From Thiotrichaceae bacterium (GTDB lineage Bacteria > Pseudomonadota > Gammaproteobacteria > Beggiatoales > Beggiatoaceae), in assembly GCA_016745055.1 (NCBI GenBank), contig JADGDF010000020.1:1-39833 (forward strand): 39,833 bases of DNA, in the 5' to 3' direction. A program made the translations under genes and the position numbers. The first letter of the stretch is position 1. Each line of letters begins with the position of its first letter. The notes beneath the pieces were generated by a model. The model was given only the letters and a program-made list of their open reading frames with translations. It was not told where the DNA came from and ran no database searches. Below, piece after piece: positions 8,495-23,509 of this stretch.

Positions 8495-9646
8495 ATGGAA
8501 GATTATCTTGTTGACTTATTGGCTCAACGTCAACAAACGTCGCTTTACCGTTTACGGCAAATTCATGACAGTCCACAAACTCCTTTTTTAACCATTGATG
8601 GGCAACAATATTTATCTTTTTGCAGCAATGACTATTTAGGGTTGGCTAACCACCCTAAAATCAAAGCTGATCTCCAAGCGGCTATCGAAACTTATGGTGT
8701 AGGCAGTGGTGCTTCTCATTTGGTCAATGGGCACACGACAGCTCATCATACGCTTGAAGAAGCATTAGCCCAATTCACTCAGCGAGAAAGTGCCTTAGTT
8801 TTTTCAACCGGATATATGGCAAATTTGGGCGTATTAACTGGCCTACTTGGTAGGCAGGATGCCATTTTTTTAGATAAATTGAATCATGCTTCCTTGATTG
8901 ATGCTGCTTTATTGTCACGAGCAAAACTATATCGTTATCCGCATAATGACATGCAAGCACTAGAGCAATTGTTGGCAAAATCAAAGGCTGTTCATAAAAT
9001 GATTGTCACTGATGGTGTGTTTAGCATGGACGGCAATGTTGCAAATTTGCCAGTCATTTGTGAGTTGGCGGCTCATTATCAAGCTTGGGTAATGGTAGAT
9101 GATGCCCACGGCCTAGGCGTAATTGGAGAAACCGGGGGTGGCAGTTTGGAAATGTATAAATTGACAGAGAAAGACGTACCCATATTAATTGGTACTTTGG
9201 GCAAAGCCTTTGGGGTATTTGGTGCTTTTGTAGCTGGCAGTCGTTTATTAATTGATGCTTTGATCCAAACAGCTAGAACTTATATTTATACGACTGCTTT
9301 GCCACCTGCATTAGCGGTTGCTCTGCAAACAAGTTTACTATTAGCTAAACAAGAACCTTGGCGACGCAAACATTTAAATGAATTAATTCATTACTTTCGT
9401 ACAGAAGCCAAAAAAAGAAATATCGTTTTAACAGATTCAATCACGCCTATTCAGCCGATTATATTAGGTTCTTCAGAAAAGGCGTTGCAAGTTAGCCGTG
9501 CTTTGCATAACCAAAATATTTGGGTCACAGCAATTCGCCCACCGACGGTACCAGTTGATAGTGCGCGATTACGAATTACTTTTTCAGCAAGTCATCAATA
9601 CCAACACATTAATGAATTGTTAGCAAAATTAGAAAATGAGTTTTAA
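8495..9646 (+). CDS. bioF: 8-amino-7-oxononanoate synthase
   Basis: A 383-aa PLP enzyme of the alpha-oxoamine synthase family. It condenses pimeloyl thioester with alanine in the first step of the biotin ring pathway. Visible features are the N-terminal FCSNDYLGLANHP signature, the PLP-stacking His131 (LNHAS), Asp202 in VDDAHG, and the Schiff-base Lys237 in GTLGKAFG. Length is normal for BioF. Kbl and serine palmitoyltransferase are paralogs, but the sequence near GSGASHLVNGH fits BioF. It starts 2 bp after the ferredoxin-like gene. No other bio gene is present in the window. Confidence 0.93.
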   Translation: MEDYLVDLLAQRQQTSLYRLRQIHDSPQTPFLTIDGQQYLSFCSNDYLGLANHPKIKADLQAAIETYGVGSGASHLVNGHTTAHHTLEEALAQFTQRESALVFSTGYMANLGVLTGLLGRQDAIFLDKLNHASLIDAALLSRAKLYRYPHNDMQALEQLLAKSKAVHKMIVTDGVFSMDGNVANLPVICELAAHYQAWVMVDDAHGLGVIGETGGGSLEMYKLTEKDVPILIGTLGKAFGVFGAFVAGSRLLIDALIQTARTYIYTTALPPALAVALQTSLLLAKQEPWRRKHLNELIHYFRTEAKKRNIVLTDSITPIQPIILGSSEKALQVSRALHNQNIWVTAIRPPTVPVDSARLRITFSASHQYQHINELLAKLENEF

Positions 9647-9665
9647 TCAACATCAACGATTTCTT

Positions 9666-9840
9666 CTATCCCTTGTTTTTAACAGGATAACGCCGCCAAC
9701 TGAATAAATTATTAAATAATAGTGCAATAACTAAAATGACAAATATGTTAAGCAGAACAGGTATAAACACATAAATATAACCCAAATCAAGAATATCTTG
9801 TCCACCAATCACGGCAGTTAAAGCTGTTGCTCCTCCAGTA
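9666..9840 (-). pseudogene. C-terminal remnant of a second HPP-family gene
   Basis: The minus strand reads GGATALTAVIGGQDILDLGYIYVFIPVLLNIF... SWRRYPVKNKG, ending at TAG (9666-9668). This matches the last ~57 residues of the intact HPP protein at 16272-16787 with a few conservative changes. At DNA level 9685-9838 aligns to 16285-16438 with roughly nine mismatches and no gaps. The HPP motif and everything before it are missing; upstream the frame joins a torD fragment. Confidence 0.85.
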
Positions 9841-9985
9841 ACTGCGCTAAAATTTGGTAATAAGCTAATGAGGTTGTGTCGCTCAGTTTGTTACAAAAAG
9901 CAGTGATCCATTCGCCCAAATGCTCTCCTTGAAATGTTGCAAGCGCTTGATAGGTAGTTTTAGCTGATGTTTCACAGCGGTTATT
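9841..9985 (-). pseudogene. Internal remnant of a second torD-like gene
   Basis: The minus strand encodes TTYQALATFQGEHLGEWITAF and TTSLAYYQILAQL, clearly homologous to HQALASFQGDHLGEWITAF and TTSLAYYQLLSQL in the chaperone gene at 16802-17497. The N-terminal half and the last ~40 residues are gone. The deletion end joins the HPP remnant near 9840, so this is one eroded torD-HPP locus in the same gene order as the intact pair. Confidence 0.8.
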
Positions 9986-10050
9986 TTTTGCGCTTTACTT
10001 AACTGAATTATTTTTACTGCTTTGAGGAGAATTTATAAAGAGGGTAAAAG

Positions 10051-10088
10051 GACAAATCAGACATAGGCTATTATCTGTCTGATTTGTC
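10051..10088. repeat. Perfect 13-bp inverted repeat before the LRR gene
   Basis: GACAAATCAGACA (10051-10063) and its exact complement TGTCTGATTTGTC (10076-10088) are separated by 12 bases. It lies about 35 bp upstream of the LRR gene start, where it could be an operator, a terminator for upstream transcription or the end of a mobile repeat. No U-run follows on the plus strand. Confidence 0.7.
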
Positions 10089-10122
10089 ATTATCACTAGC
10101 TTTTGTTTCAAAGGAGGTGTTT

Positions 10123-11079
10123 GTGAAACAACCATTTTTAAGCATAAATTGTACCCATTTTTTACAACAATGTAGGAGAAGTGTTTTTCTAATTGTATTT
10201 TCTATTTGGCTCATGATAGGGCAACTCGCTTTTACTGGCACTGTACACGCCGTCGACGCATATGGTAAACCGCATACCACGCAACTTGTACTTTCTGACA
10301 CAACCCTTCATATGGCCGATGAATACGATAGTTCGTATACCTTTGACCCTGCCATAAACACATTCTGTAATACTGTTACTCAGATTCCCCAAATAGAATG
10401 CCAAGCCTTGGTTGATTTTTATCATAGTACCAATGGTCAAAATTGGGAAAGAAGTGCGGGTTGGAACATAACTGATGAACCTTGCAGTTGGCGTGGAGTG
10501 TCTTGTAGTGGAAATGTTGTGATAGACCTCGTATTGGAACAAAATAGGCTTAATGGCTCTATTCCAGAATCATTGGGAAATTTGACGAATTTGCGGAAGT
10601 TGATATTGAATCATAACCAGCTCAGTGGCTCTCTCCCTAAGTCATTAGGCTATTTGAGCAATTTACGGCTCCTTCATTTGATGAGTAACCAAATCTGTGG
10701 AGAAATTTCCACTTCCTTGATGAATCCAAGTAGACTAGGCTATTTACAATTGCAGAACAACCACCTATCTGCTTCTGATCCAGAATTTATTGAATGGCTT
10801 AATGTCAAAAATCCCGAGTGGGCAACGACGCAAACACCTTGTCCTTGTTTTGTCTATGCAGTCCATGATGATAAACTAAACAACTCACAGTTGTTTACCA
10901 TTGATCCTACTCAAAATTTTCAAGTCAACGCTTTGGGTGACATCCATCAAGTCTATGATCTAGAAGGATTAGATTTTCATCCTCAAACACTGATTCTCTA
11001 TGCCTCATCAGGTGATAATCCTGCACAAGGCTTACCTGCTGGCTACCTATACCAAGTCAATTACGACTTAGCCAAGTAA
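10123..11079 (+). CDS. Secreted leucine-rich-repeat protein, probably truncated
   Basis: GTG 10123 is chosen because a perfect AAGGAGGT (10111-10118) sits just upstream. The protein has 318 residues. A signal peptide (hydrophobic about 21-40, cleavage after VHA43) is followed by an LRR N-cap (W..DEPCSWRGVSC) and plant-type repeats (LNGSIPESLGNLTNLRKL, LSGSLPKSLGYLSNLRLL) to about residue 235. The start of a second domain (VYAVHDDKLNNSQLFTIDP... GLDFHPQTLILYASSG) is interrupted after YLYQVNYDLAK by TAA 11077. The missing part of that domain is found at 15530-15966, so a ~4.4-kb insertion split the gene. The N-terminal half may still be secreted. Confidence 0.75.
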   Translation: MKQPFLSINCTHFLQQCRRSVFLIVFSIWLMIGQLAFTGTVHAVDAYGKPHTTQLVLSDTTLHMADEYDSSYTFDPAINTFCNTVTQIPQIECQALVDFYHSTNGQNWERSAGWNITDEPCSWRGVSCSGNVVIDLVLEQNRLNGSIPESLGNLTNLRKLILNHNQLSGSLPKSLGYLSNLRLLHLMSNQICGEISTSLMNPSRLGYLQLQNNHLSASDPEFIEWLNVKNPEWATTQTPCPCFVYAVHDDKLNNSQLFTIDPTQNFQVNALGDIHQVYDLEGLDFHPQTLILYASSGDNPAQGLPAGYLYQVNYDLAK

Positions 11080-11096
11080 TGTGAACGTCTTTTGGT

Positions 11097-11315
11097 TTGC
11101 TCACCATAAAGCTATCCCGTTTATCACAAATTAATGAAGTTAACAAAAAAGCGATTCATATGTTATTTCAAAAGATGGGCGTGGTTGATACTGTGCGATT
11201 CTTAAATCAATTTAGTTTGGGAAGTGGAGATTACACAAAAGATAGGCATCAATGGTTAGATTATTTGTATTTGGATGATATTTTTTCTGAAATAGAAGCA
11301 CGTAGACAACGATAA
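11097..11315 (+). CDS. Small conserved protein (DTVRFLNQF...GDYTKDR type)
   Basis: A 72-aa ORF containing VVDTVRFLNQFSLGSGDYTKDRHQW and ending DIFSEIEARRQR. I have seen this pattern in small cyanobacterial and Beggiatoa proteins, often beside toxin-like genes, but no function is assigned. No ATG starts the homologous region: TTG 11097 is the first possible start, and ATG 11160 would remove the first 21 residues. It begins 17 bp after the LRR stop, so its 5' end may have been altered when this segment was inserted. Confidence 0.5.
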   Translation: MLTIKLSRLSQINEVNKKAIHMLFQKMGVVDTVRFLNQFSLGSGDYTKDRHQWLDYLYLDDIFSEIEARRQR

Positions 11316-11378
11316 AAGGTCTATGAGTCTACGGTTGGGTCTAGGTGGCAAAGCTTGCCCTGGTACTTATTACCATTT

Positions 11379-11888
11379 TTAAAAATTGTCATTGAAATCA
11401 GGTAGTCTATCAAACCAATCAGGCGGATAAATGCCTAGTGTGATATAGCAATGGTAAGAGGAGTATGGCCAATCACGGGGATGTTTGACGGGATTGTAAT
11501 GAATATAGTCAACATGGTTGGCATAGTCGGTTTCGTCGCGGATGGTGTGTTCCCAAAAGCGACGTTGCCAAATCCCCCGCTCATCCCGTTTGATGCGGGT
11601 GTGTGAACGCCATTCTGCGGCTGGAATGTCTTTCGTGAAGTGTTTTTTTATGGCTCGCCAGCGACCGGAATAGTCGTCATCATTCGGTGGTAGGGTTAAC
11701 ACACAGTGGAGGTGTTCAGGTAAGATGACGATGGCATCGAAATGGAAAGGGCGTTGTTGTTTGGTTTTACGGAAGGCTTCGCGGAGGATGTCGATATGTT
11801 GGGTCAACAGGTGTTTGCGGCGTTCCAACAAGTTGACGGTGAAAAAGTAACAACCGCCCGGAACACGGTTGCGGCGGTAGTTTGGCAT
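11379..11888 (-). CDS. REP-associated tyrosine transposase (RAYT)
   Basis: A 169-aa Y1-type HUH nuclease. The N-terminal [17 protein letters not shown] strand is followed by the metal-binding HLH (59-61) in [12 protein letters not shown] and the [30 protein letters not shown] block with the candidate nucleophilic tyrosine. RAYTs cut and rejoin single-stranded REP hairpins. ATG 11888 matches the family start; the open frame reaches 11927, but that stretch contains a degenerate REP. Three REP hairpins with related loops lie within 230 bp upstream. It is part of the DNA that splits the LRR gene. Confidence 0.9.
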
Positions 11889-11906
11889 GGAAAATCCTTC
11901 ATGTAA

Positions 11907-11932
11907 GGTGCATAAATCCGGTGTCATGCTCC
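11907..11932 (+). repeat. REP hairpin, degenerate copy
   Basis: GGTGCAT, then AAATCCGGTGTC, then ATGCTCC. It has the same stem-loop-stem layout as the copy at 11963 with one stem mismatch. It lies just upstream of the RAYT start. Confidence 0.55.
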
Positions 11933-11962
11933 ATTATAATCAGGAAATAAGTATTGAGGTAG

Positions 11963-11988
11963 GGTGCATAAGCGCAGCGTCATGCACC
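11963..11988 (+). repeat. REP hairpin (GGTGCAT stem)
   Basis: A perfect 7-bp stem GGTGCAT / ATGCACC encloses the 12-base AAGCGCAGCGTC. It lies about 75 bp upstream of the RAYT start and is the likely cognate substrate. Confidence 0.8.
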
Positions 11989-12092
11989 TTATATGAGAGA
12001 CTAGCTAAATGGTGGATGATGCTTATGGAATCAGCCTAGGGACTTGTGAGGAAAACTGTCCACAGTTGAGTAGTGTGCAAGGGTTTCCAAAT

Positions 12093-12118
12093 GGCGGATG
12101 ACGCTACGCTTATCCGCC
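12093..12118 (-). repeat. REP hairpin (GGCGGAT stem), inverted
   Basis: On the minus strand GGCGGAT, AAGCGTAGCGTC, ATCCGCC. The stem differs from the copy at 11963 but the 12-base loop is identical except for one base. The two copies are in opposite orientation, as in BIME-type REP pairs. Confidence 0.8.
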
Positions 12119-12210
12119 TTACGAGTTGCCTAGACGGACAGTTCCGGTCACAACGGTCTGTGGGGGACTTTCACCCCTTGGGCGTATGCCATGTCTGGCA
12201 CACAACGTTC

Positions 12211-12235
12211 GGGTCAAGGTTACAAACCTTGACCC
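12211..12235. repeat. Palindrome GGGTCAAGGTT-ACA-AACCTTGACCC
   Basis: Perfect 11-bp arms around ACA. It shares the GGTTACAAACC core with the element at 1316-1339 but has different, still self-complementary outer arms. The stretch 12119-12279 around it has no credible gene; a 71-codon ORF (12073-12288) crosses the REP and this palindrome and is not convincing. Confidence 0.75.
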
Positions 12236-12279
12236 GCGAGACTTACTCTCAAGCGCCAGCGTGGGAGCGATTGAAAGTC

Positions 12280-13683
12280 CTAGAATGAGTTAGAGTCGTA
12301 TACAACAGTAATGACGCGGAATGTATCGTCACTACGATGCCCGATATCATTTGTACCTTGCAACACTGTTTTGTTGTTTTTTCCGACATTGCCAGCATCA
12401 ACTGTACTCTGCTTTTTACCGATGTTATCGTATAGGTCTTTAGGAGTGTCCACTCTAGAATCTCCAATAGCGATGGCTTGCTCGTTGTCAGTGCCATAGT
12501 GCACTTCATATTTAGCAGAGATGCTTGGTTCTGAAGAAGAATGCTTTGAATCTTTCATGCTAAACAAATAGCCTACGCCCTCCATGAGCTTGTGATTGTT
12601 CAACACGCCGAACATCCCGTAGTGAATAACAGCCGTTGATGTTCCGCTACTGAAGTTCAGCAATTCCACTTCTGTGATTTCCATGCCGGGAATCGGGGGC
12701 GGCGTAAAGGCACCAGGTAAACTACAATTGGAAACTTTGGTTGGGTTTAACATTGGCGGCAGTTGCCCAGGTCCGTGAGCGACATTATCCGTGTATGGTC
12801 CAAAAAACTGATATGAAATGCCACTCATATTAAATGCGATATGATTGACGTAAAATACTTTGTCTATTAGGTGCCATAGCCAAATAATTATTGCGATGAT
12901 TACGATTGTAATTAAGCCAACTACACCAGCCGCAATGAAGTCACCAATTATTGCACAGGTCAGACCTTCGTCCAATGCCGCTTCAAAAGCCGAAGTGTCC
13001 AGTTCCATAGTCACATCCGACTCTGATTCAGCTTCGGATAGTGCATCTTGTTGTTCTTCTTCTGTAAGATTAGGCGGCTTTCCCTCGCGTATTTTTGTTA
13101 CAACTTTAGTAGCTACCGCTGCGATTGATTTTTTTAATGCCTTTGATACAAGAGTAGCTACCGTGGCACTACCAATGCCTATAGCCAACCCGTACATTAT
13201 CATGCACGTTACCGAGCAATAATCGCCCTTTGGGTTGAAGACAAACTGCTGAGCAAAAGCTGTTTTGTTACTTTTATCCTTGAGAGCTTCCTGAGGTATG
13301 AACCTGTTATATTCTTCAGGGACGTTGCCGTGATAGGCGACGACCATGTTGTAAACACCATTGACCTCGCAGTATGACATATCATACTTTCGGCCATGCG
13401 AGTCGGTTTTATTAGTGTAATCGGCCCAGTTTTCGTCTTTGGAGAGTGTTTCAAAATGATTTTCGATGTCAGCTTTACCGGGGGTAGGTGTCCCGTATGT
13501 CCCTTTAGTAATGTGATCGAAAATCTTTTGGACATAGGCAGTGTCGTTGGTTTCAACAAAGCTCTTGAGCAAACTGAAAAGTTCACTTTCCTTCCCTTTA
13601 TGCGCAGAGCTCAGTCGTGATATTCCTGTGTCGACAGGGAAGTATTTCACCTTCTTCAAGCTGTTTGATGCAATGGTTGTCAT
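12280..13683 (-). CDS. 467-aa membrane-inserting protein of unknown family
   Basis: Start ATG 13683 has GGAGGAAT about 8 bases upstream; an open extension to 13755 is ignored. Residues 1-155 are soluble and polar. Residues 158-180 (CMIMYGLAIGIGSATVATLV) and 243-273 (CAIIGDFIAAGVVGLITIVIIAIIIW) are hydrophobic, separated by a basic helix and an acidic stretch (EEEQQDALSEAESES). Residues 278-467 look beta-rich (VNHIAFNMSGISYQFFGPYT; TSTAVIHYGMFGVL; KYEVHYGTDNEQAIAIGD). I recognise no family. The central membrane segments plus a beta-rich C-terminal domain recall pore-forming or membrane-attacking proteins, a guess only. It lies 208 bp downstream of the reverse transcriptase on the same strand, so the two may form one unit. 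Confidence 0.7.
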   Translation of the reverse strand: MTTIASNSLKKVKYFPVDTGISRLSSAHKGKESELFSLLKSFVETNDTAYVQKIFDHITKGTYGTPTPGKADIENHFETLSKDENWADYTNKTDSHGRKYDMSYCEVNGVYNMVVAYHGNVPEEYNRFIPQEALKDKSNKTAFAQQFVFNPKGDYCSVTCMIMYGLAIGIGSATVATLVSKALKKSIAAVATKVVTKIREGKPPNLTEEEQQDALSEAESESDVTMELDTSAFEAALDEGLTCAIIGDFIAAGVVGLITIVIIAIIIWLWHLIDKVFYVNHIAFNMSGISYQFFGPYTDNVAHGPGQLPPMLNPTKVSNCSLPGAFTPPPIPGMEITEVELLNFSSGTSTAVIHYGMFGVLNNHKLMEGVGYLFSMKDSKHSSSEPSISAKYEVHYGTDNEQAIAIGDSRVDTPKDLYDNIGKKQSTVDAGNVGKNNKTVLQGTNDIGHRSDDTFRVITVVYDSNSF

Positions 13684-13891
13684 TATGGAATTCCTCCGTT
13701 TAGTAAAGAGAGCAATCGATAGAAAATATATCAGGATTCTGCTTACTGGTGCCAAAGTTTAGGTTAATTTTCAAATGGATAAAGGTGATGCTACCCTATT
13801 AGCGCAGATGGAAGGATATCGAGTTATCCAGTATCAACCAGCTTCATAAATTGAGAAGCCAAGTAGCAAATCCCACCATCCCCTGAAACCT

Positions 13892-14860
13892 TCACTTCCC
13901 CAACCCCACTCCTCGCACCACATACTGCCCAATGTCCCGTTCAGAAACACCTTGCTCATAAAGCTGGCACAGTTTGCCTTGATGGTTAGCCCAAGTCTTC
14001 CAAGCGATATCCAACCCCGCCCGCAAGCGGTTGCCGATTCGATACCCCAGAAAATCAAACCCAGACTCCTTAATGCGTCCGATAAAAGTTTTGTAAGGGT
14101 GTTTAGTCATCTTCACGCGGTCTAACACCCGATTCATAATCCGTACTCCCGTCCGTAATTGCTGGCGTGTCCGGCACAGAATCACCCAATCATCCATGAA
14201 CCGCGCATAAAACAACCCCTGCGCCGCACAATACTGACCAAGTTCCTCATCCAATGCCTGCAAATACACCGCCCCCAACAACGGCGACAGCGGATTACCT
14301 TTACTGATGCCAATCTCAACCGGGTGCAAAACACCCTGCACATCATCCAACCGATCCAACATCCGGCTTAATAACGTCAGCACCGTTTCACTAGGAATCA
14401 ATGCCTGTAACTGCTTGATTAAAATGCCGTGGTCAATCGTTGCATAATATGAATTGACATCACTGCGACACACAAAACGGTACTCATCCACCTGCTCATG
14501 CACCGCATTCACACAATCCTTAGCCCCGCCATTGCCTGCTAAATGGAAACAATGTTGACTCAGCTGAGGGTTGAGATAAGGGCTTAACACCTGCGCCATG
14601 GCCTTCAAGACCAAAGCATCTTGCGCACACCAGACTAACCCGCCTTCATACTGTTGACAGGGACTAAACTGATAAGTCCCATCGCAAATGGCTGCAATGA
14701 TCTCCGGCTCCAACTGTTGGCGATGATGCCGTAAGTGCCAATAATCACTATTGTGATGACTGCGCTTACGCCGACTCGCCAACCATGCCCAAGCCGCTTG
14801 GAGATTTTCCGCTGCCACAATCTGCTCAATTAAACCCATAATGTTAAGCCGAGTAGCCAT
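13892..14860 (-). CDS. Stand-alone reverse transcriptase
   Basis: A 322-aa RT domain protein. Motif A is CRSDVNSYYATIDH (Asp134), the motif B region is GISKGNPLSPLLGAVYL (184-200), and the catalytic motif is FMDD (221-224). A thumb-like HPYKTFIGRI..GFDFLGY follows (254-273). There is no maturase (X), DNA-binding or endonuclease domain, and the length is that of a bare RT. The motif B box differs from the IGNLTSQ box of diversity-generating retroelements. It resembles stand-alone RTs with CPLSPLMGALYL that I recall from many proteobacterial genomes without a known role. ATG 14860 is the first ATG; ATG 14839 is possible. No group II intron or retron RNA was recognised nearby. Confidence 0.88.
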   Translation of the reverse strand: MATRLNIMGLIEQIVAAENLQAAWAWLASRRKRSHHNSDYWHLRHHRQQLEPEIIAAICDGTYQFSPCQQYEGGLVWCAQDALVLKAMAQVLSPYLNPQLSQHCFHLAGNGGAKDCVNAVHEQVDEYRFVCRSDVNSYYATIDHGILIKQLQALIPSETVLTLLSRMLDRLDDVQGVLHPVEIGISKGNPLSPLLGAVYLQALDEELGQYCAAQGLFYARFMDDWVILCRTRQQLRTGVRIMNRVLDRVKMTKHPYKTFIGRIKESGFDFLGYRIGNRLRAGLDIAWKTWANHQGKLCQLYEQGVSERDIGQYVVRGVGLGK

Positions 14861-15020
14861 GAACAATAGCGCATCCTGTATCGCACTTCACCTAATAAAA
14901 ATAGTAACGTGCTTCAAGAAGCTGAATATAATTCACGAAAAATATGGTAATTGAAATTTTACAGCATGTAAATACAACTTAAGTCGTATTGACAAAAATG
15001 ATTAAATAGTATAAGGAAAT

Positions 15021-15047
15021 TTACCCGCTGGCTATCTATATCAAGTT
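15021..15047 (+). pseudogene. 27-bp second copy of the LRR-gene breakpoint
   Basis: Encodes LPAGYLYQV, as at 11038-11064 in the LRR gene, with about four silent transitions. Sequence similarity stops on both sides. It marks the right edge of the inserted segment or a remnant of a paralogous gene. Confidence 0.5.
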
Positions 15048-15102
15048 AGTAACTCACGTTACGAAATAATTGGAACGTTGTTTTCTCATTCTTGTAAACA
15101 TT

Positions 15103-15179
15103 GTCATTCCCACGAAAGTGGGAATCTAGAATCTAACTAACATGACAACCTCCTAGATTCCTGCCTGCGCCGGAATGAC
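15103..15179. repeat. dRS3-like dispersed hairpin repeat
   Basis: GTCATTCCCACGAAAGTGG, AATCTAG at the left and CTAGATTCCTGCC, CGCCGGAATGAC at the right form a long inverted repeat. The ATTCCC-N8-GGGAAT core is the pattern called dRS3 in Neisseria and is widespread in proteobacteria. Confidence 0.65.
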
Positions 15180-15381
15180 TGCGTAACGTCAGTCAATAAA
15201 ACCAATGGTAGTCTCACACCTGTTTGTCACACTGGCTCCGGTGTCTCGCAGAGTTTTCGTGACGCTCATGGGACGTCCTATCCCTAAGAGCTACTCACGT
15301 CAACGATATGCTAGTTGATTGCCTCGATCCGTCCGGTCTCGATACGGCAACTGCGTACTTTGTTTCACTACGCACTCCGCC

Positions 15382-15529
15382 AGCCTACTCCACCATAACG
15401 CTGAGGTCGTTGTCAAAAATAGCAAAAAACGCACACTATCGCCCTTACGTACTGTTTTATACCATTTTTGAGCACACAGCTAGTCGCGGACTACTCGGCT
15501 CCGGCTTCGCCTTTCCATGCCTCGCAGCG
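15382..15529 (+). repeat. Left arm of ~140-bp inverted repeat
   Basis: Starts AGCCTACTCCACCAT, passes TTGTCAAAAATAGCAAAAA and TACTGTTTTATACCATTTTT, and ends CCATGCCTCGCAGCG. The reverse complement of 15980-16114 matches along its length with small indels. It abuts the gene fragment at 15530. Confidence 0.85.
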
Positions 15530-15966
15530 TAGGAAAAGTGTCCGCCATGGCTTTCCATCCACAAGAGGGCAGTTTATGGGTCTGGGCTGATGGTGAAGGT
15601 TTATTTACCGTTGATATTAACCAAATTGATCAGGAAACTTGTCACAAAACTGAAATCATCTCTGCCGATACCAAAGTTGAAGGCTTAACTTGGGATATTC
15701 AAGGACATACCCTGTATGCGGCCTTGGGCAAAGCTTTATATCAATTTGACTATCAAACGGGAGTTGTTGATAAAACTTGCAGGCACTTCCCTAGCCAAGT
15801 TGAAGCGTTATCAATGCTTGATACGAACGAGTTATTATTCAGTTTACATAAATCCAGCGATACCAGTATTCATTCATTTGATCCTAGCAGTTGCACTATC
15901 ACTAACAGCCTGTTAGTCAATACTCCCTATACTGATATTGAAGGTATCGTTTGGCAATGTACTTAA
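15530..15966 (+). pseudogene. C-terminal half of the split LRR protein gene
   Basis: Encodes VGKVSAMAFHPQEGSLWVWA, GLFTVDINQID, VEGLTWDIQGHTLYAALG, VEALSMLDTNELLF and TPYTDIEGIVWQCT, stopping at TAA 15964-15966. These WD/beta-propeller-like blades continue the domain started before 11079 (GLDFHPQTLILYASSG...). An ATG at 15517 gives an open frame, but that codon lies inside the left inverted repeat, so it is not a native start. It has no ribosome-binding site of note. Joining to the N-terminal half would restore a secreted protein of roughly 460-480 residues. Confidence 0.75.
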
Positions 15967-15979
15967 GTTTTTTTACTTG

Positions 15980-16114
15980 CGCTGCGAGGCATGGATGCCG
16001 AGTAGTCGCGACTGGCGCTCAAAAATAGTATAAAACAGTATGCAAGGGCGATAGTCCTTGACGTGCGTTTTTGCTATTTTTGACAACGACTCCAACGTCA
16101 TGGTGGAGTAGGCT
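15980..16114 (-). repeat. Right arm of ~140-bp inverted repeat
   Basis: Starts CGCTGCGAGGCATGG and ends GGTGGAGTAGGCT. It is an inverted copy of 15382-15529, lacking about 13 bases near the inner end. It begins 13 bp after the stop of the enclosed gene fragment. Confidence 0.85.
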
Positions 16115-16271
16115 AACGGAGATTTATAGATTAAATCATATAATACATAATTATTTATTATAATTACAAATAAAATTCCAGATAGTTCCAATATGGTTTT
16201 CGATTTTTAAAGACAGAGCTTTTCTGACCAAGCAAGAAGCCCGTTGGCGCAGTGCAGAAAAACTAAACCTG

Positions 16272-16787
16272 TCAAGTTTTCACCGGATAACGCCGCCAAC
16301 TGAATAAATTATTAAATAATAGTGCAATAACTAAAATGACAAATATGTTAAGCAGAACAGGTATAAATACGTAAATATAACCTAATTCCAAAATTTCTTG
16401 CCCACCAACCACGGCAGTTAAAGCTGTTGCTCCTCCAGGAGGATGCACACAGTCACAGTATTGCATCAGAATAATGGCAACAGACACTGCTAAAGCAGCT
16501 GCAATTAGGGGATCAGCAACTCCCTGTGCGCAAGTGACTCCAACAATAGCAGCAATGCTGTGCCCACCAATTAAAGCTCGAGGCTGTGATAATTTGCCTT
16601 GAGGTACAGCAAATAGTAATACAGCAGACGCGCCCATTGATGCAACGATCATAGGTAAACTTTGAAGAGCAAACAAGTCACGGCTGGTAAAAATAATGGC
16701 AGCAATCGCAATAAAGCTACCTATCAACGAAACCAGTTTATCAATATGGCACTGATATTTGTTTTGCTTGATGGGGAAAGTCATCAT
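16272..16787 (-). CDS. HPP-family integral membrane protein
   Basis: A 171-aa protein with about five hydrophobic segments and the family signature CVHPPGGATAL (residues ~114-124). HPP proteins of cyanobacteria and chloroplasts have been linked to nitrite transport. As the last gene of a nitrite/nitrate-type molybdoenzyme operon, a role in moving nitrite or nitrate is plausible but inferred. The start is ATG 16787 or 16784; it follows the chaperone stop by 14 bp without a strong ribosome site, suggesting coupling. Its 3' 154 bp are duplicated at 9685-9838. Confidence 0.85.
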   Translation of the reverse strand: MMTFPIKQNKYQCHIDKLVSLIGSFIAIAAIIFTSRDLFALQSLPMIVASMGASAVLLFAVPQGKLSQPRALIGGHSIAAIVGVTCAQGVADPLIAAALAVSVAIILMQYCDCVHPPGGATALTAVVGGQEILELGYIYVFIPVLLNIFVILVIALLFNNLFSWRRYPVKT

Positions 16788-16801
16788 TTCACTAGTAACT
16801 T

Positions 16802-17497
16802 TTAAGCTGGAACCACATCACATTCATAAGGAGTGCCTTGTTCATCACTGATTGGCTCTGCTGTTGATTCTGGTAAAGGTAATTGATTTGCTGTGACAAT
16901 GCCATCCCAGGTTTTTTCTAATAACTGTGATAAAAGTTGATAGTAAGCCAATGAGGTTGTGTTAGTTAATTTGTCACAAAAAGCGGTGATCCATTCGCCT
17001 AAATGATCTCCTTGAAATGAGGCAAGGGCTTGATGTGTCGTTTTAGATGACGTTTCATCATCTGCTCGGGATAACATAACCAGGAGTAAGGCTGCAAATT
17101 CCAGCTCACAAATTAAATGATCCGCTTTTTCGGTTGCATTTTCTGCTAATTGAAAACCAAAAGCACGATAGAATCCAGCAATATCGGCTAAGATTGCGCC
17201 TTTGTCGCGTCGAATAAATCCAGATTCATTAATTGGGCAGGCAACACCACCTTCAAACAAGTAGGTATGTTCTTCTGTCAACTCCTCTAAATTACTATTT
17301 TCTGCGTATTGTCTCAATTGTTGATACAAACTCTCCAAATTAGACGCATTTGATATTCCTGTATTGTCAGCTAATGCTTGAATATCTGTGACTTCTTGTT
17401 GTAATAAAGTAAACGTTTTATCAGAAGGGGGCGCTAGTAATTGTGCAAGCAGTAAAAGTAAGTCAGCCTGGGCGAGTTGGTTAATTTTTTGAGACAT
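16802..17497 (-). CDS. TorD/NarJ-type molybdoenzyme chaperone
   Basis: A 231-aa all-helical protein. The family signature region LTEEHTYLFEGGVACPINES lies in the first half, followed by GFYRAFGFQL and DHLICELEFAALLL typical of TorD/DmsD/NarJ-like chaperones. Such proteins bind the Tat signal of the apo-catalytic subunit and help cofactor loading. ATG 17497 is preferred over 17509 because GGAA lies 6 bases upstream. Encoded after the gamma subunit and just before the HPP gene, it corresponds to the delta subunit of ebd/pcr-type operons. It is cytoplasmic and not part of the final enzyme. Confidence 0.85.
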   Translation of the reverse strand: MSQKINQLAQADLLLLLAQLLAPPSDKTFTLLQQEVTDIQALADNTGISNASNLESLYQQLRQYAENSNLEELTEEHTYLFEGGVACPINESGFIRRDKGAILADIAGFYRAFGFQLAENATEKADHLICELEFAALLLVMLSRADDETSSKTTHQALASFQGDHLGEWITAFCDKLTNTTSLAYYQLLSQLLEKTWDGIVTANQLPLPESTAEPISDEQGTPYECDVVPA

Positions 17498-17519
17498 GGT
17501 AAGTTCCATTTATTTAACA

Positions 17520-17559
17520 GGAGTGCAAAACTTGTTTTGCAAGATAAATCTTGCACTCC
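17520..17559. repeat. Hairpin repeat between gamma and chaperone genes
   Basis: GGAGTGCAA (17520-17528) pairs exactly with TTGCACTCC (17551-17559). The inside holds alternative short stems (CTTG/CAAG). It may stabilise or attenuate the operon mRNA. Confidence 0.6.
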
Positions 17560-17574
17560 TTCAAAGTTTATTTG

Positions 17575-17646
17575 TTGCCAAGCTTTGCTTTGCGAATTTG
17601 GGAAGCTGCTCTTCCTTGGCAAACACTCCCAAACAGAGCTTGGGAG
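17575..17646. repeat. Palindromic repeat cluster 3' of gamma gene
   Basis: TTGCCAAG (17575) pairs with CTTGGCAA (17615-17622), and CTCCCAA (17626) with TTGGGAG (17640-17646). The sequence is related to the array at 18672-18766 on the other side of the gamma gene. Confidence 0.65.
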
Positions 17647-17687
17647 CGAGTTTTTACTTGGGTGAGATCAATAAAGTTAGAGAAAAA

Positions 17688-18533
17688 TTATTGCAACTGG
17701 TACTCTACCCAACTTGACCAATGTTTTTTGCCACCCACATTGCCTTTATCTCCTAACCACAAGGCAAACGCCACCTGTCCTTTATCTTTGAACTGATGAT
17801 CATTAGGATCATCTGTTGTTAAAGGACGAGCAAAGACCACTTGCCATTGCCCATTTTGCCAAACACCTTTGGACAACGTGACACTATTATCCTGGTGAGT
17901 TAACGTTCCCCAACCTTCGGCAACTAACTCTTCTGCAGGTTGACTGCGACTAAACATTGACATAGGGTTTCCTGCTTGTTTGGCAATAAACCATTGTTGA
18001 GCTGCCGGATTTTGAAAATCTTCTGGAATACGATAAGGATGTTCGCCATCTGCAAACCAGTACAAATCCGACCAATAATTAGGATACAAGTCTTGCACAT
18101 CTTGAAAACCAACATCCTGGTCTTTTTGCCATAAGCCTTTCCAGTACAAAATTTGTACTTTTGCACCTTTATGACCCATCATGGGCGCGGCATTTTCTCC
18201 TAATGGAAATTCCAGAGCCACTGCATCCGAGAAACGTTGAGTGTCGACATTAAAATCCGCCGTTGCATCGGCCCAAGTCACACGCCAGGCAATGTTTTTC
18301 CCATCGCTTAGCGCTTGCACGGTGAGCTTATCAACAGACGCTGTTGCCAATGCAGGCATTGCCATTTGTTGCGGTAAGATAATGACGTCTTGGGTAGGCG
18401 CTTTTTGCCAGCTTTCAGCCAAAGGATCAACAGGCACGTCACCAGAAATAGAGGTGACTGCAATGGGCGCTGCTAATAGCATTGTAGCCCATGAAAATAG
18501 CAGGAGGGTAAAAATAGTTTGAAATGCTCTCAT
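17688..18533 (-). CDS. Periplasmic haem-b (gamma) subunit of type II molybdoenzyme
   Basis: A 281-aa protein with a Sec signal peptide (MRAFQTIFTLLLFSWATMLLA, cleavage near residue 21-22). The mature part resembles the ethylbenzene dehydrogenase/DdhC/SerC haem-binding domain. Visible blocks are DGKNIAWRVTWADATAD, DAVALEFPLG, a Met-rich APMMGH segment and a C-terminal GGKKHWSSW, where the family uses one Met and one Lys as axial ligands of a b haem. GGAGAAGG precedes the ATG. It would receive electrons from, or give them to, the beta subunit's Fe-S chain. No NarI-like membrane cytochrome is encoded. The operon order alpha-beta-gamma-chaperone matches ebd and pcr operons rather than ser or ddh. 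Confidence 0.8.
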   Translation of the reverse strand: MRAFQTIFTLLLFSWATMLLAAPIAVTSISGDVPVDPLAESWQKAPTQDVIILPQQMAMPALATASVDKLTVQALSDGKNIAWRVTWADATADFNVDTQRFSDAVALEFPLGENAAPMMGHKGAKVQILYWKGLWQKDQDVGFQDVQDLYPNYWSDLYWFADGEHPYRIPEDFQNPAAQQWFIAKQAGNPMSMFSRSQPAEELVAEGWGTLTHQDNSVTLSKGVWQNGQWQVVFARPLTTDDPNDHQFKDKGQVAFALWLGDKGNVGGKKHWSSWVEYQLQ

Positions 18534-18586
18534 TGTCCTTCTCCAATCTAACGAGGGTAAAATATAAAGAACATGGTATGTCTGCT

Positions 18587-18616
18587 CTGGTTCCCACGCT
18601 AGAGTGTGGGAACCAG
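18587..18616. repeat. Palindrome CTGGTTCCCACGCT type
   Basis: 14-bp arms (CTGGTTCCCACGCT / AGTGTGGGAACCAG, one mismatch) around AG. A decayed second copy (CTGGTTCCCACGCTGGAGCA) begins at 18784. Confidence 0.7.
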
Positions 18617-18633
18617 ATGAAGATTCTCAGACA

Positions 18634-18664
18634 GACCTGGTAGGTTTTGAAAACCTGCCAGGTC
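18634..18664. repeat. Dispersed palindrome, GACCTGGCAGGTTTT type
   Basis: GACCTGGTAGGTTTT, then GAAAACCTGCCAGGTC. Same family as 3187-3217, with one arm mismatch. Confidence 0.75.
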
Positions 18665-18671
18665 TTTCTCG

Positions 18672-18766
18672 TTACCAAGCTCTGCTTGGTAATGCTTGCT
18701 AGCAAAGCTCTGCTTTGCGGGAAAGCAGAGCTTCCCGTGCAGACACTCCCAAGCAGAGCTTGGGAG
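18672..18766. repeat. Array of four hairpins, three with AAGC-NNN-GCTT cores
   Basis: In order: TTACCAAGC-tct-GCTTGGTAA (18672-18692); GCAAAGC-tct-GCTTTGC (18702-18718); CGGGAA-N8-TTCCCG (18718-18737); CTCCCAAGC-aga-GCTTGGGAG (18746-18766). The outer arms differ from copy to copy but stay complementary. Confidence 0.8.
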
Positions 18767-18840
18767 CGAGAGGTCGTGATTACTCTGGTTCCCACGCTGG
18801 AGCATAGGAACGAGATGCAATAATGTTCACTTCTTTTGCT

Positions 18841-18861
18841 CCCCTCCTTACCAAGGAGGGG
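18841..18861. repeat. CCCCTCCTT/AAGGAGGGG dispersed hairpin
   Basis: 9-bp arms around ACC, followed by CTGGGGGTGG. I have seen this sequence as a dispersed repeat in many unrelated bacterial genomes. It lies 26 bp after the beta-subunit stop. Confidence 0.65.
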
Positions 18862-18886
18862 CTGGGGGTGGTTAACTTACTAATTA

Positions 18887-20014
18887 TTAAGTCGTATTAT
18901 GCCGATACACATCAAAGCGTTTATCATAATGATCACGAATGTAAGTGTGTTCTGTGAAAGGCACTCGGGCAACTTCTTCACCTTTCACATCCCAACCAAT
19001 GACTTCGTTCTCATTCACTTTAAATTTCGTCACAATCCGCGTAGTCGCCCCAAACAGCAACAGTGCACCCAAAAGTTCCTTATCATTTTTGAGTGTACTG
19101 TACATGGCCTTAGCTTTTTCAACATTGGGGCCAAACAACTGACCTAAAAAACCATCGGGGACGTGTACAGGCGGAATGTAATATACATTTGGCCCTGTGC
19201 CAAATTGTGGATAAAGAGGTAACGCCAATTGACGAATTTTGACGATATAATCCAAAGGATTATCGGCTTGCGGTTCACCTTGTGTGCTGAGAAAGCCGTG
19301 CAGACGAATCTTGCCAATACAAGACTCCACGCATAAAGCCACTTCACCTTGCTCAACCCGAGGATAACAGCCAATGCATTTTTCACTGGTACGACTGATC
19401 ATATTAAAGAATGTTTTTTTGTAAGGGCAAGCTTTCACACATTCCTGATAACCACGGCAACGTTCTTGATCTATCAGTACAATGCCATCTTCATCCCGTT
19501 TATACACCGCCTTACGTGGACAAGCAGCAACGCAAGCGGGGTTATCACAATGGTTACAAATACGCGCCAGATAAAACATCCACATGGGGTGTACACCAGA
19601 AAAATGCCCCCCTTGCTCTACCGTGCCAGTAATATCATCTTCCCCCAAATTCAGTGCGGAATAATCATCCGGCGTTGGGTGATGTCCCGTAGGTGAGTCT
19701 AATGGCCCATGATCTTCAAAAATCGTCTTGGTTTTTAAAACACCATTTTGCCATTGTGCAGGTTCGCGTTGTTCCAATAACTTCAAATCCCAGGTAGTGG
19801 GGTAACCACCATAGGGTTTGGTTTCAACGTTATTCCAAAAAATGGTTTCCTCACCTTTGGCACTGGTCCAACAGGTTTTGCAAGCAATGGTGCAGGTTTG
19901 ACATTCAATACATTTGTTAATGTCAAAAATATAGGCAACTTGCTTTTGCGGTGGCGGAGCATCATACGGATATTCGATGTCGCGGCCCAATTGCCAGTTA
20001 GTACGTGTAGGCAT
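18887..20014 (-). CDS. Iron-sulfur (beta) subunit, NarH/NxrB type
   Basis: A 375-aa protein with four Cys clusters: I C35-C38-C41-C45; II C153-C156-C161-C165; III C186-x2-Y189-x2-C192-x3-C196; IV C213-C216-C228-C232. In NarH a Trp occupies the Y189 position and cluster III is 3Fe-4S; Tyr there is seen in other type II beta subunits, so the same is expected here. There is no signal peptide; it would be exported by the Tat pathway with alpha. AGGAG precedes the ATG, and it starts 12 bp after alpha. The gene product carries electrons between the Mo site and the gamma haem. Confidence 0.9.
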   Translation of the reverse strand: MPTRTNWQLGRDIEYPYDAPPPQKQVAYIFDINKCIECQTCTIACKTCWTSAKGEETIFWNNVETKPYGGYPTTWDLKLLEQREPAQWQNGVLKTKTIFEDHGPLDSPTGHHPTPDDYSALNLGEDDITGTVEQGGHFSGVHPMWMFYLARICNHCDNPACVAACPRKAVYKRDEDGIVLIDQERCRGYQECVKACPYKKTFFNMISRTSEKCIGCYPRVEQGEVALCVESCIGKIRLHGFLSTQGEPQADNPLDYIVKIRQLALPLYPQFGTGPNVYYIPPVHVPDGFLGQLFGPNVEKAKAMYSTLKNDKELLGALLLFGATTRIVTKFKVNENEVIGWDVKGEEVARVPFTEHTYIRDHYDKRFDVYRHNTT

Positions 20015-20026
20015 TAGTAATCTCCT

Positions 20027-23000
20027 TTAACTGAGCATTGAAATGAATTGACCCGCGATAAATTGCTTCAAGCTGTCGCGTTCATAGGTGGGACGTAATC
20101 CTTTGGCTGCAGGTGCCCATAACCCTTCACCGCCTAACCCGCCAGCTTCTGCTTTGGTAATTTTGACATAGGCTTCACGCGGTGCACCCGTGGGACAATG
20201 AACGTCAGGCACAAAGCCTTGAGCCATTTTTTGTCCCAGCAAACCTTTAACGTATAAAGAATCTGTCATCCAGGTTGGTTTTAACCAGCCTCGGGTACAG
20301 CTTTGATGACTGCCGCCTCGGAAAATAGATTGATAGCCGGTTTCCGCTGATTTTGCCAATCCAGTGGAATTGGTTTTCTGTGCTTTAACGGTGCCAAAAG
20401 AAGCACTGTACATGTTATGCCACATGCGCGTCACGCCACGCGGTGTACCAGGATAGTAGCGTGCCCGTACTAATAAACGCGCCACTTCATACCCTTCAGG
20501 ATTATTTTGCCATTTACGGAAAGGACGATCATGCGGATCAGCATCCACATAGACATAATCCCCATCTTCAACGCCTAACGCTTTAGCATCCATTGGGTTA
20601 ATATCAATATAAGCTTCGGTCACAAACGGCATGCGCTTATCACGACGCAACATATCACCAAAAGGGCCAAACCAAGCGGCAACAATATCGGTATCAACCG
20701 CAGTCGTATGCGCACCATGTCGATATTTTGGCGTATGGAAAATAAAACCGTGCCCAATTTCGTTGAGTGGATGTACGCTAGCCAAGACTTCTTCCACCGT
20801 TTTAATGACATGACGGGCCTGGCGAGTATCACCAGAAATATCACTTGAACTCACCCCGTAATCTTCTGGAGATTTTGGCTTTAACAAAGGATGTGTTGTG
20901 GCAACAATCACATTAGGTTCAAAGAAGGTTGAATCAATGGGTTCGCGGTGAATAACCATGTTCTCGCCACTGTCACGAAATTCTGGCTCTTCACGGTAAA
21001 ATTCCAAGCGTCCACTCTTGGTATACCAGGGCTTGTCCTCGTTGCCTTGTTCCCAAGCTCCAATTTTGGGATACGTCCGCGTTTGAATAATAGCTGGAAT
21101 ACCTTCTGCGGCTTTCTTCTCCAAATCTTCAATTTTATAACCGCGCATGACATTGGAATGATCCAGCACCCGTTGGATGTACGTCCGCATTTGCCCATTG
21201 TCCATGAAATGCCAATACGCTTCATGACGGTCATCACCCGTGGCTTGTCCAATCGCTTTACAAATACCTGCAGCCACTTCATTATCCGAACGGGTATCAT
21301 GAATCCGTTTTAAAGGTGTAGCAGGAAAAACGTATAAAAATGGGTTAGTGACGCTGATACTCATGTCGGGGTATTTGAGCTCTGCCCAACTGTCCACGGC
21401 AAACACAATATCTGCATATTCACAACTGGCTGTCCACCACCACTCATTTTGCGCGACGAATTCAACTCTGGATAACACATTAATCACAAAATCATAATGA
21501 CCTTTGACATTACCAATCAACGAGTTAGAGTTACTGACATGCACAGCTTTAGTCGGCGTAGGAATGTGGGTTTTACCTGTAAGGACCGTTTTCCCCATGC
21601 GTAAAATGGTGTCACCATGATTGAAATAATGGACACTTTCAGCTTTCCAACGCTTATTTAATTTCGCTGGTTTATTAGGGTCTAATTCAGGATTAAAGGG
21701 GTCTTCACCAATGTATTGTGGTAACCCGTTAAAAAAGCTGGCACGGTAATTACCCGCATAGCTGCCCACATTGCCACTGATTTTACCCAAGTTACGGGTT
21801 AATGCGGCGACAAGGAAAATCGCCCGATCTTTTAAATCATTGTTGAAGAACTGATTAGGGCCCATGCCCACGGTAAACAACGTTTTTTCAGGATTTGCCC
21901 CAATTTGCCGCGCTAAACCTTGAATTGCTGCCTCTGGTGCCCACGTCAGTTTTGCGACTTTGTCTGGGGTATACGTACTATCCAATAACTCTTTGGTCGC
22001 ATCAAAGACGGTGCGACAGGTAATGGTTTCACCTGAAGCCAGAGTCACTTGAAATTCACCGTTTAATTCGGGATTCACGCCTAATTGGGCAAAATGTTTG
22101 CTGACTTGGTCGCGATTAATAGCCACGGGTTGTTTTTTGTTCGCATCCCAAATGACAAAATCACCCCAGTCTTCGCGTTGTTTTTCATTCAATACCAAAG
22201 CAGGTTGTTTATGAATAGGTGGGCCTTTTTCACCTGCTTTGATCATCACAATACTGTTTTTCAACGTAGCCAATTTATAATCTGTAAATACATCGCTAGC
22301 ACGTAGCATTTCGCCCGTATCCATGCGAACTAATAAGGGCAAATCTGTGTTTGCCTTCACATAAGCATCATCAAATAATTTTTCACTGATAAGCACTTGC
22401 GCAATACCCAGGGCCAATGCTGGTGTGGTACCTGGGCGAACAATAATAGCTTCATCGGCTTTACTGCTAGTGGCGCTGTACTCTACTGCAATCACGACCA
22501 CTTTCGTGCCTTTCATGCGAGCTTCCGTCATCCAATGGGAATCAGGCATTTTAGTGGTAATCCAGTTCATGCCCCACACGAGCAATAAATTGGCATGTTC
22601 CACATTACATAAGTCAAAATCGTTAGTTTGTTGCCCTGTTACCATGGGGTGGCCAGGCGGTAAATCAGTATGCCAACTGTAATTGTCAAATCCGCGTCCA
22701 CCCAAGGATTCTTTTTCTCCCTTGCCGCGAATTTTATCGTCTAGCAACGCCATGGCATTCGCTTCACGATATTGAGCAAACACGCGCGTCATCCCTAAAG
22801 GAGGCATCCCTCCTCTGAATTTCAACGTTTGAGTACCCGCCCCTTTGGTTGCATCAACCATCAGAGGATCGTAACCTTGGGCCAATAAGCGTTGTTTACC
22901 CGCTTCACCAGAATAGGTTTGGGCGATATTGGTCAATGCTTTGCCTGCAAATTCAAACGCATCATCCCAGGAAACGGCAACCCAGCTATCTCTACCACGT

Positions 23001-23509
23001 TGCAAATATTTTTGATCAACGGCTCCTGTGTTTTCATCACGCGGAAAATCAGACTTTACCCATTCCATAAAGCCTTTACGCACCATGGGTCGTTTACAAC
23101 GCCGGTCGCCATAAAAACGCCGCACTAAGGCTAGACCTTTTTGACAACAACGTGGGTCCCAGCGTTGTCCAGCTTGATTACCATCTAAATCAGTGGCTTT
23201 TTGATAGCCGTAAGTAGGTGCAATGCGCGTAACAACGCCATTTTTTACAAAACCACGTAATAAACAGTTGTGAGTATCGTTAGGTGCACACAGGAAAGTA
23301 AAAGAAGAATCGTAATGATATAAGTCGCGATACGTTTTTTCCCAATCACGGTTGGGATATTGAGAGAGAGGATTAGCAATATCAACAGGACTGAGCAATT
23401 GCATTGCAGAAACAGTCTGTTGTGAAATAAGGGCAACACTGGCCCCTGTAGCAGCCGTTTGAAATAGAAATTGACGGCGGGAAATATTGGAGGACTGTGA
23501 ATTTGACAT
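20027..23509 (-). CDS. Catalytic molybdopterin (alpha) subunit, Nxr/Nar-like, Tat-exported
   Basis: A 1160-aa type II DMSO-reductase-family enzyme. The Tat signal SRRQFLF (10-16) and hydrophobic run show periplasmic export with beta as hitch-hiker. The FS0 ligands read C74-x3-D78-x3-C82-x39-C122, where E. coli NarG has His-Cys-Cys-Cys. Asp282 in HTDLPPGHP aligns with the Mo ligand Asp222 of NarG, and GTTPALALG and the C-terminal molybdopterin-binding domain are present. Length and sequence look closest to periplasmic Nxr of Nitrospira/anammox and to Nar; selenate, chlorate, perchlorate or dimethylsulfide substrates cannot be excluded. AAGGAG precedes the ATG. Direction (nitrite oxidation or nitrate reduction) cannot be read from sequence. 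Confidence 0.85.

Follow-up and report, generated by a model that had tools for sequence, protein, structure and literature searches.

Positions 9677-9974 (minus strand) of the contig that was analysed here over its full length of 39,833 nucleotides (the window) carry, with a probability that we put at roughly 0.8, a pseudogene remnant derived from the tail of another chaperone-HPP gene pair. The remnant is located next to bioF and probably stems from a second version of the tail of an nxr-type operon, whose intact counterpart lies 6.6 kb away in the same window.

Direct comparison within the window resolved the remnant into two collinear blocks, which agree in strand and gene order with the intact HPP and chaperone genes. 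The first block (9677-9838, minus strand) is the 3' end of the HPP gene from codon 117 onwards; it has no start, retains its own stop just downstream (PVKNKG*) and aligns without gaps over 162 nt with 16277-16438 at 93% identity. The original prediction had counted about nine mismatches, many of them silent, in the gap-free match of 9685-9838 to 16285-16438; there are exactly nine, of which six are silent. The second block (9839-9974, minus strand) represents codons ~152-199 of the TorD/NarJ-type chaperone gene, an open frame without start or end, and aligns over 136 nt with 16922-17057 (83% nucleotide and 80% amino acid identity). It is indeed an internal part of the chaperone gene, as had been proposed for 9841-9985, but the match begins at 9839 and stops at 9974 (codon 152). 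When the organism's own genome (4.65 Mb in 356 contigs) was searched, the HPP and chaperone blocks yielded E-values of 1.5e-64 and 3.7e-34, respectively, and the remnant and the intact copy were the only matches; a third copy of the pair was not found in this genome, and a chance match is thereby excluded.

Relative to the intact pair, the left copy lacks 483 bp (16439-16921) comprising HPP codons 1-116, the spacer and the final 36 codons of the chaperone gene. This bears out the proposal that the chaperone's end and the HPP start were deleted at about position 9840 with gene order preserved. The junction lies at 9838/9839, where clear microhomology was looked for and none was seen. By this deletion the two remnants are fused out of frame, and start codons are absent; both frames are open, with neither a stop nor a frameshift inside either fragment. 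Collinear homology to an intact pair and disabling lesions, the two properties by which we define a pseudogene, are thus both found in the left copy. Downstream of the HPP gene the homology ends at the stop codon and the DNA flanking the two copies differs immediately, so that the duplication unit is not defined by any shared flank. A 20-bp inverted match between 10003-10022 and 17447-17466 was set aside as probably due to chance, and an Rfam scan of 9600-17700 gave no match.

The intact copy forms the tail of a predicted periplasmic nitrite-oxidoreductase-type operon on the minus strand of this Beggiatoaceae-related gammaproteobacterium. Its first gene (20027-23509) encodes an nxrA-like molybdopterin subunit with an N-terminal SRRRFL motif, which in a phmmer comparison aligned over its full length (9-1157; E=3.8e-269) with the structurally solved NXR subunit A of Kuenenia (PDB 7B04, chain 7b04_B). 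It is followed by genes for an nxrB-like iron-sulfur subunit (18887-20014; TIGR03478, E=2e-82, below the cut-off of that model), an nxrC-like haem-b gamma subunit (17688-18533; PF09459, and TIGR03477 with E=3e-41, below its cut-off), the 235-aa TorD/NarJ-type chaperone (16802-17509; PF02613, E=2.1e-18, and TIGR03482 with E=6e-18, below its cut-off) and a 171-aa HPP transmembrane protein (16272-16787) with a full-length TM_HPP domain (PF04982, E=1.3e-52). Two intergenic regions of the operon contain repeats: a short palindromic repeat that matches nearly 50 other places in the genome is present between the chaperone and nxrC-like genes (17513-17571), and repeats with dozens of genomic copies fill 18583-18877 between the genes of the gamma and iron-sulfur subunits. 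The remnant most likely no longer has a function, and it is the intact operon that carries out the enzyme work.

Divergence between the two copies was assessed over a total of 97 codons by the method of Nei and Gojobori (NG86). The chaperone part (45 codons) showed a dS of 0.74 and a dN of 0.09, the HPP part (52 codons) a dS of 0.21 and a dN of 0.035. The synonymous and non-synonymous counts confirm that divergence was mostly silent, the pooled dN/dS being 0.154, a rough value given that just 97 codons were compared. Within the HPP part, 83 consecutive bp (9685-9767) are identical in the two copies. A run of this length is unlikely under uniform divergence (P 2.6e-4; P 0.0055 for third positions alone) and points to local homogenisation or to the site of a crossover. 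The chaperone fragments of the left and right copies share 80% of their amino acids over 45 residues, and either of them matches any relative at no more than 25 of the 45.

How the second copy arose can be explained in two ways, both of which are sub-cases of the reading that we favour. There is close to an even chance that the chaperone-HPP pair, or the whole operon, was duplicated in place, tandemly or segmentally, and that long retention was followed by collapse of the distal copy, with gene conversion between the two. The copies are only 6.6 kb apart in the same orientation and order, the homogenised HPP end requires that both were present in one cell, and a comparable local duplication of the chaperone 3' part exists in Thioploca sp. 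SL_4_0 (see below). Arguing against such an origin, no duplicated nxrA, nxrB or nxrC is left, and no flank is shared downstream of HPP. Alternatively, and with only slightly less confidence, the copies may come from two close species, one of them (either could be the newcomer) having been acquired by transfer and integrated by homologous recombination; a single crossover might have left partial copies of donor and resident as direct repeats around foreign DNA. The chaperone dS between the copies is about that between two orthologues of the Thioploca genus (0.77), as expected of a gene from a congener, but an old paralog would look alike. Direct repeats are the expected outcome of single-crossover insertion, the crossover could have taken place within the 83-bp identical block, and the abrupt difference past the two HPP stops fits as well. 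On the other hand, the DNA between the repeats is not clearly foreign, since the LRR gene in it has a paralog elsewhere in this genome, in which the repeats are also common. No donor sequence was found among the genomes compared, in which this genus is represented by the present genome alone, so that this set does not separate duplication from acquisition.

It is improbable that the left copy was a partial duplicate without function from the outset. That just a partial segment is present would agree with such an origin, as would the distribution of amino acid changes in the chaperone fragments: polarised with the relatives, four fall on the left copy and one on the right copy, and four are assignable to neither. 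This lean is compatible with partial relaxation of constraint on the left copy, though not decisive. However, only 13 of the 31 changes outside the identical block are replacements. In simulations with a neutral left branch the mean replacement fraction was 0.60-0.64, and the observed fraction or a lower one occurred in 0.3-1.6% of the runs (P 0.003-0.016), whereas it was typical when both branches were constrained at an omega of 0.2. The absence of stops and frameshifts from both fragments likewise speaks against a copy that never worked. Because divergence is biased towards silent changes and a neutral left copy fits poorly, both copies were probably functional for some time. To judge from these substitution patterns, the left copy was probably an active gene for much of its history, whether in this species or a different one; the silent bias would likewise be expected of an orthologue that was functional in a different species. 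An assembly artefact is most improbable: although the draft genome is split into 356 contigs, both copies are located inside one 39.8-kb contig and differ at 34 of 298 aligned columns, so that they are not a single sequence placed twice.

The original prediction went further and suggested two functional operon copies, or a paralog acquired by transfer, before one collapsed. Past function of the left copy is probable on the above grounds, but no remnant of further operon genes backs a second whole operon: the genome contains one nxrA-like gene and no other match to nxrA, nxrB or nxrC coding DNA, and those matches that were obtained fall into the intergenic repeats at ~18583-18877.

The two copies do bracket, as direct repeats, a stretch of ~6.3 kb, as had been noted. 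Rather than an accessory module serving the enzyme, this stretch is mainly one leucine-rich-repeat (LRR) protein gene broken by mobile elements. The gene, on the plus strand, is predicted to encode a secreted protein. Its 5' part (10123-11061), with LRR matches in Pfam, is 79% identical to part of an intact, 875-aa paralog elsewhere in the genome (C317:20448-23075) and is broken at 11061; its 3' part (15191-15973) is 84-89% identical to the same paralog. The junctions with this uninterrupted paralog delimit an insertion of 4129 bp (11062-15190) that has a direct repeat of 7 bp (AGTCAAT) on its flanks and contains open reading frames for a Y1/IS200-like transposase, a 491-aa product (12280-13755) without a match in Pfam or NCBIfam, and a group II-type reverse transcriptase (Pfam/NCBIfam). 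Because 26 bp of the LRR gene are found again at 15021-15046, the segment 11062-15190 may be more than one insertion. The 3' part is itself interrupted at ~15238-15527 by a dispersed repeat of ~290 bp that the paralog lacks and of which the genome has dozens of copies, either partial or full; an inverted partial copy (minus strand), recognised by inverted-repeat comparison, follows at 15973-16121. We dismissed the idea that this repeat is a hairpin MITE, as its predicted single-strand fold was not unusual (z -0.11) and BLAST revealed no self-complementary arms. Upstream of the LRR gene, 10050-10088 contains a perfect 13-bp inverted repeat (GACAAATCAGACA ... TGTCTGATTTGTC), possibly a terminator or an operator. 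Interruption of genes by dispersed repeats and group II intron-type elements has been described for Candidatus Thiomargarita nelsonii (PMC4853749). The LRR gene is a similar case of disruption by mobile elements, with the differences that it lies beside an nxr operon and that no such element is implicated in breaking the remnant pair.

Both copies in this genome have the HPP gene next to the chaperone gene, an arrangement that was absent from the other 42 genomes in a family comparison of 43 genomes including this one; in one single-contig family genome the two genes are 130 kb apart. A first scan of the genome_contigs collection with the chaperone as query found no relatives. A second scan with an nxrA alignment returned 80 named nxrA loci, at none of which a relative of HPP was detected within the sampled flanks, some of them short. 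The order nxrA-nxrB-gamma-chaperone is common to the operon described here and those of Thioploca, Thiomargarita and other loci, which have no HPP gene; an HPP gene after the chaperone gene distinguishes the present operon from every other one sampled. Neighbouring genes do not indicate which copy sits at the original place, because bioF, lon and the nxr operon are scattered, at 4.22, 0.16 and 2.01 Mb in a single-contig genome of the same genus as Thioploca SL_4_0 (G002) and on different contigs elsewhere in the family.

Remnants of the chaperone gene also occur in two other genera. In Thioploca sp. SL_4_0 (G026, L044) a 3' part of the gene, 88% identical over 382 bp, is found 4.6 kb downstream of the complete gene; a neighbouring gene that we call PIN-domain-like from reading its sequence, with no database search behind the name, is duplicated collinearly with it (94%). 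The duplicate at L044:7922-8215 is an open, 97-aa C-terminal part (dS 0.30 and dN 0.036 to the full gene). At 92% identity over 308 bp it resembles the full gene of its own genome far more than the copy described here, which indicates that it arose independently. A third case is an isolated chaperone tail in G020 (L021:1501-1644), a genome in which nxrA was not detected at the threshold used. The codons left as remnants are 152-199 here, 136-232 in Thioploca SL_4_0 and 184-231 in G020. In Candidatus Parabeggiatoa sp. nov. 2 (G018, L047:775-11834) gaps of ~4.2, 0.9 and 3.4 kb lie between the nxr genes, which suggests insertions in the operon. It might be supposed that in the Beggiatoaceae nxr-type operons are repeatedly replaced by a second version, that every such turnover leaves a chaperone tail behind as a fossil, and that the present lineage also added an HPP nitrite transporter. 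As a general model we consider this doubtful; the three remnants are suggestive of repeated turnover and too few to test it.

Taking these data together, we propose that HPP was first joined to the chaperone gene in this lineage, given that the operons of sampled relatives are without HPP. The pair would then have existed in two versions, as paralogs or with an allele from a close relative, which diverged under selection and underwent one local homogenisation at the HPP 3' end. Subsequently, the version beside bioF would have lost its function, one deletion taking the 483 bp and the remainder of the chaperone gene being lost at 9974. The space between the copies is occupied by the LRR gene and several mobile elements.

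The remnant is a genuine but modest, mostly ordinary gene-pair fossil of ~300 bases in a transposon-rich stretch. It is a record of two versions of a chaperone-HPP pair that once existed alongside a nitrite/nitrate enzyme operon in a relative of the large sulfur bacteria, and operon turnover in this family becomes testable as more genomes appear. The most useful lead concerns HPP itself. Nitrite transport activity has been reported for HPP family proteins of cyanobacteria and chloroplasts (Maeda et al. 2014, as cited in PMC7438415). The protein described here shares the full-length domain with this family and differs in that its gene ends an nxr-type operon, and on sequence grounds it is a candidate transporter. 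Its linkage to nxr genes is a small lead towards HPP proteins moving nitrite for such enzymes.
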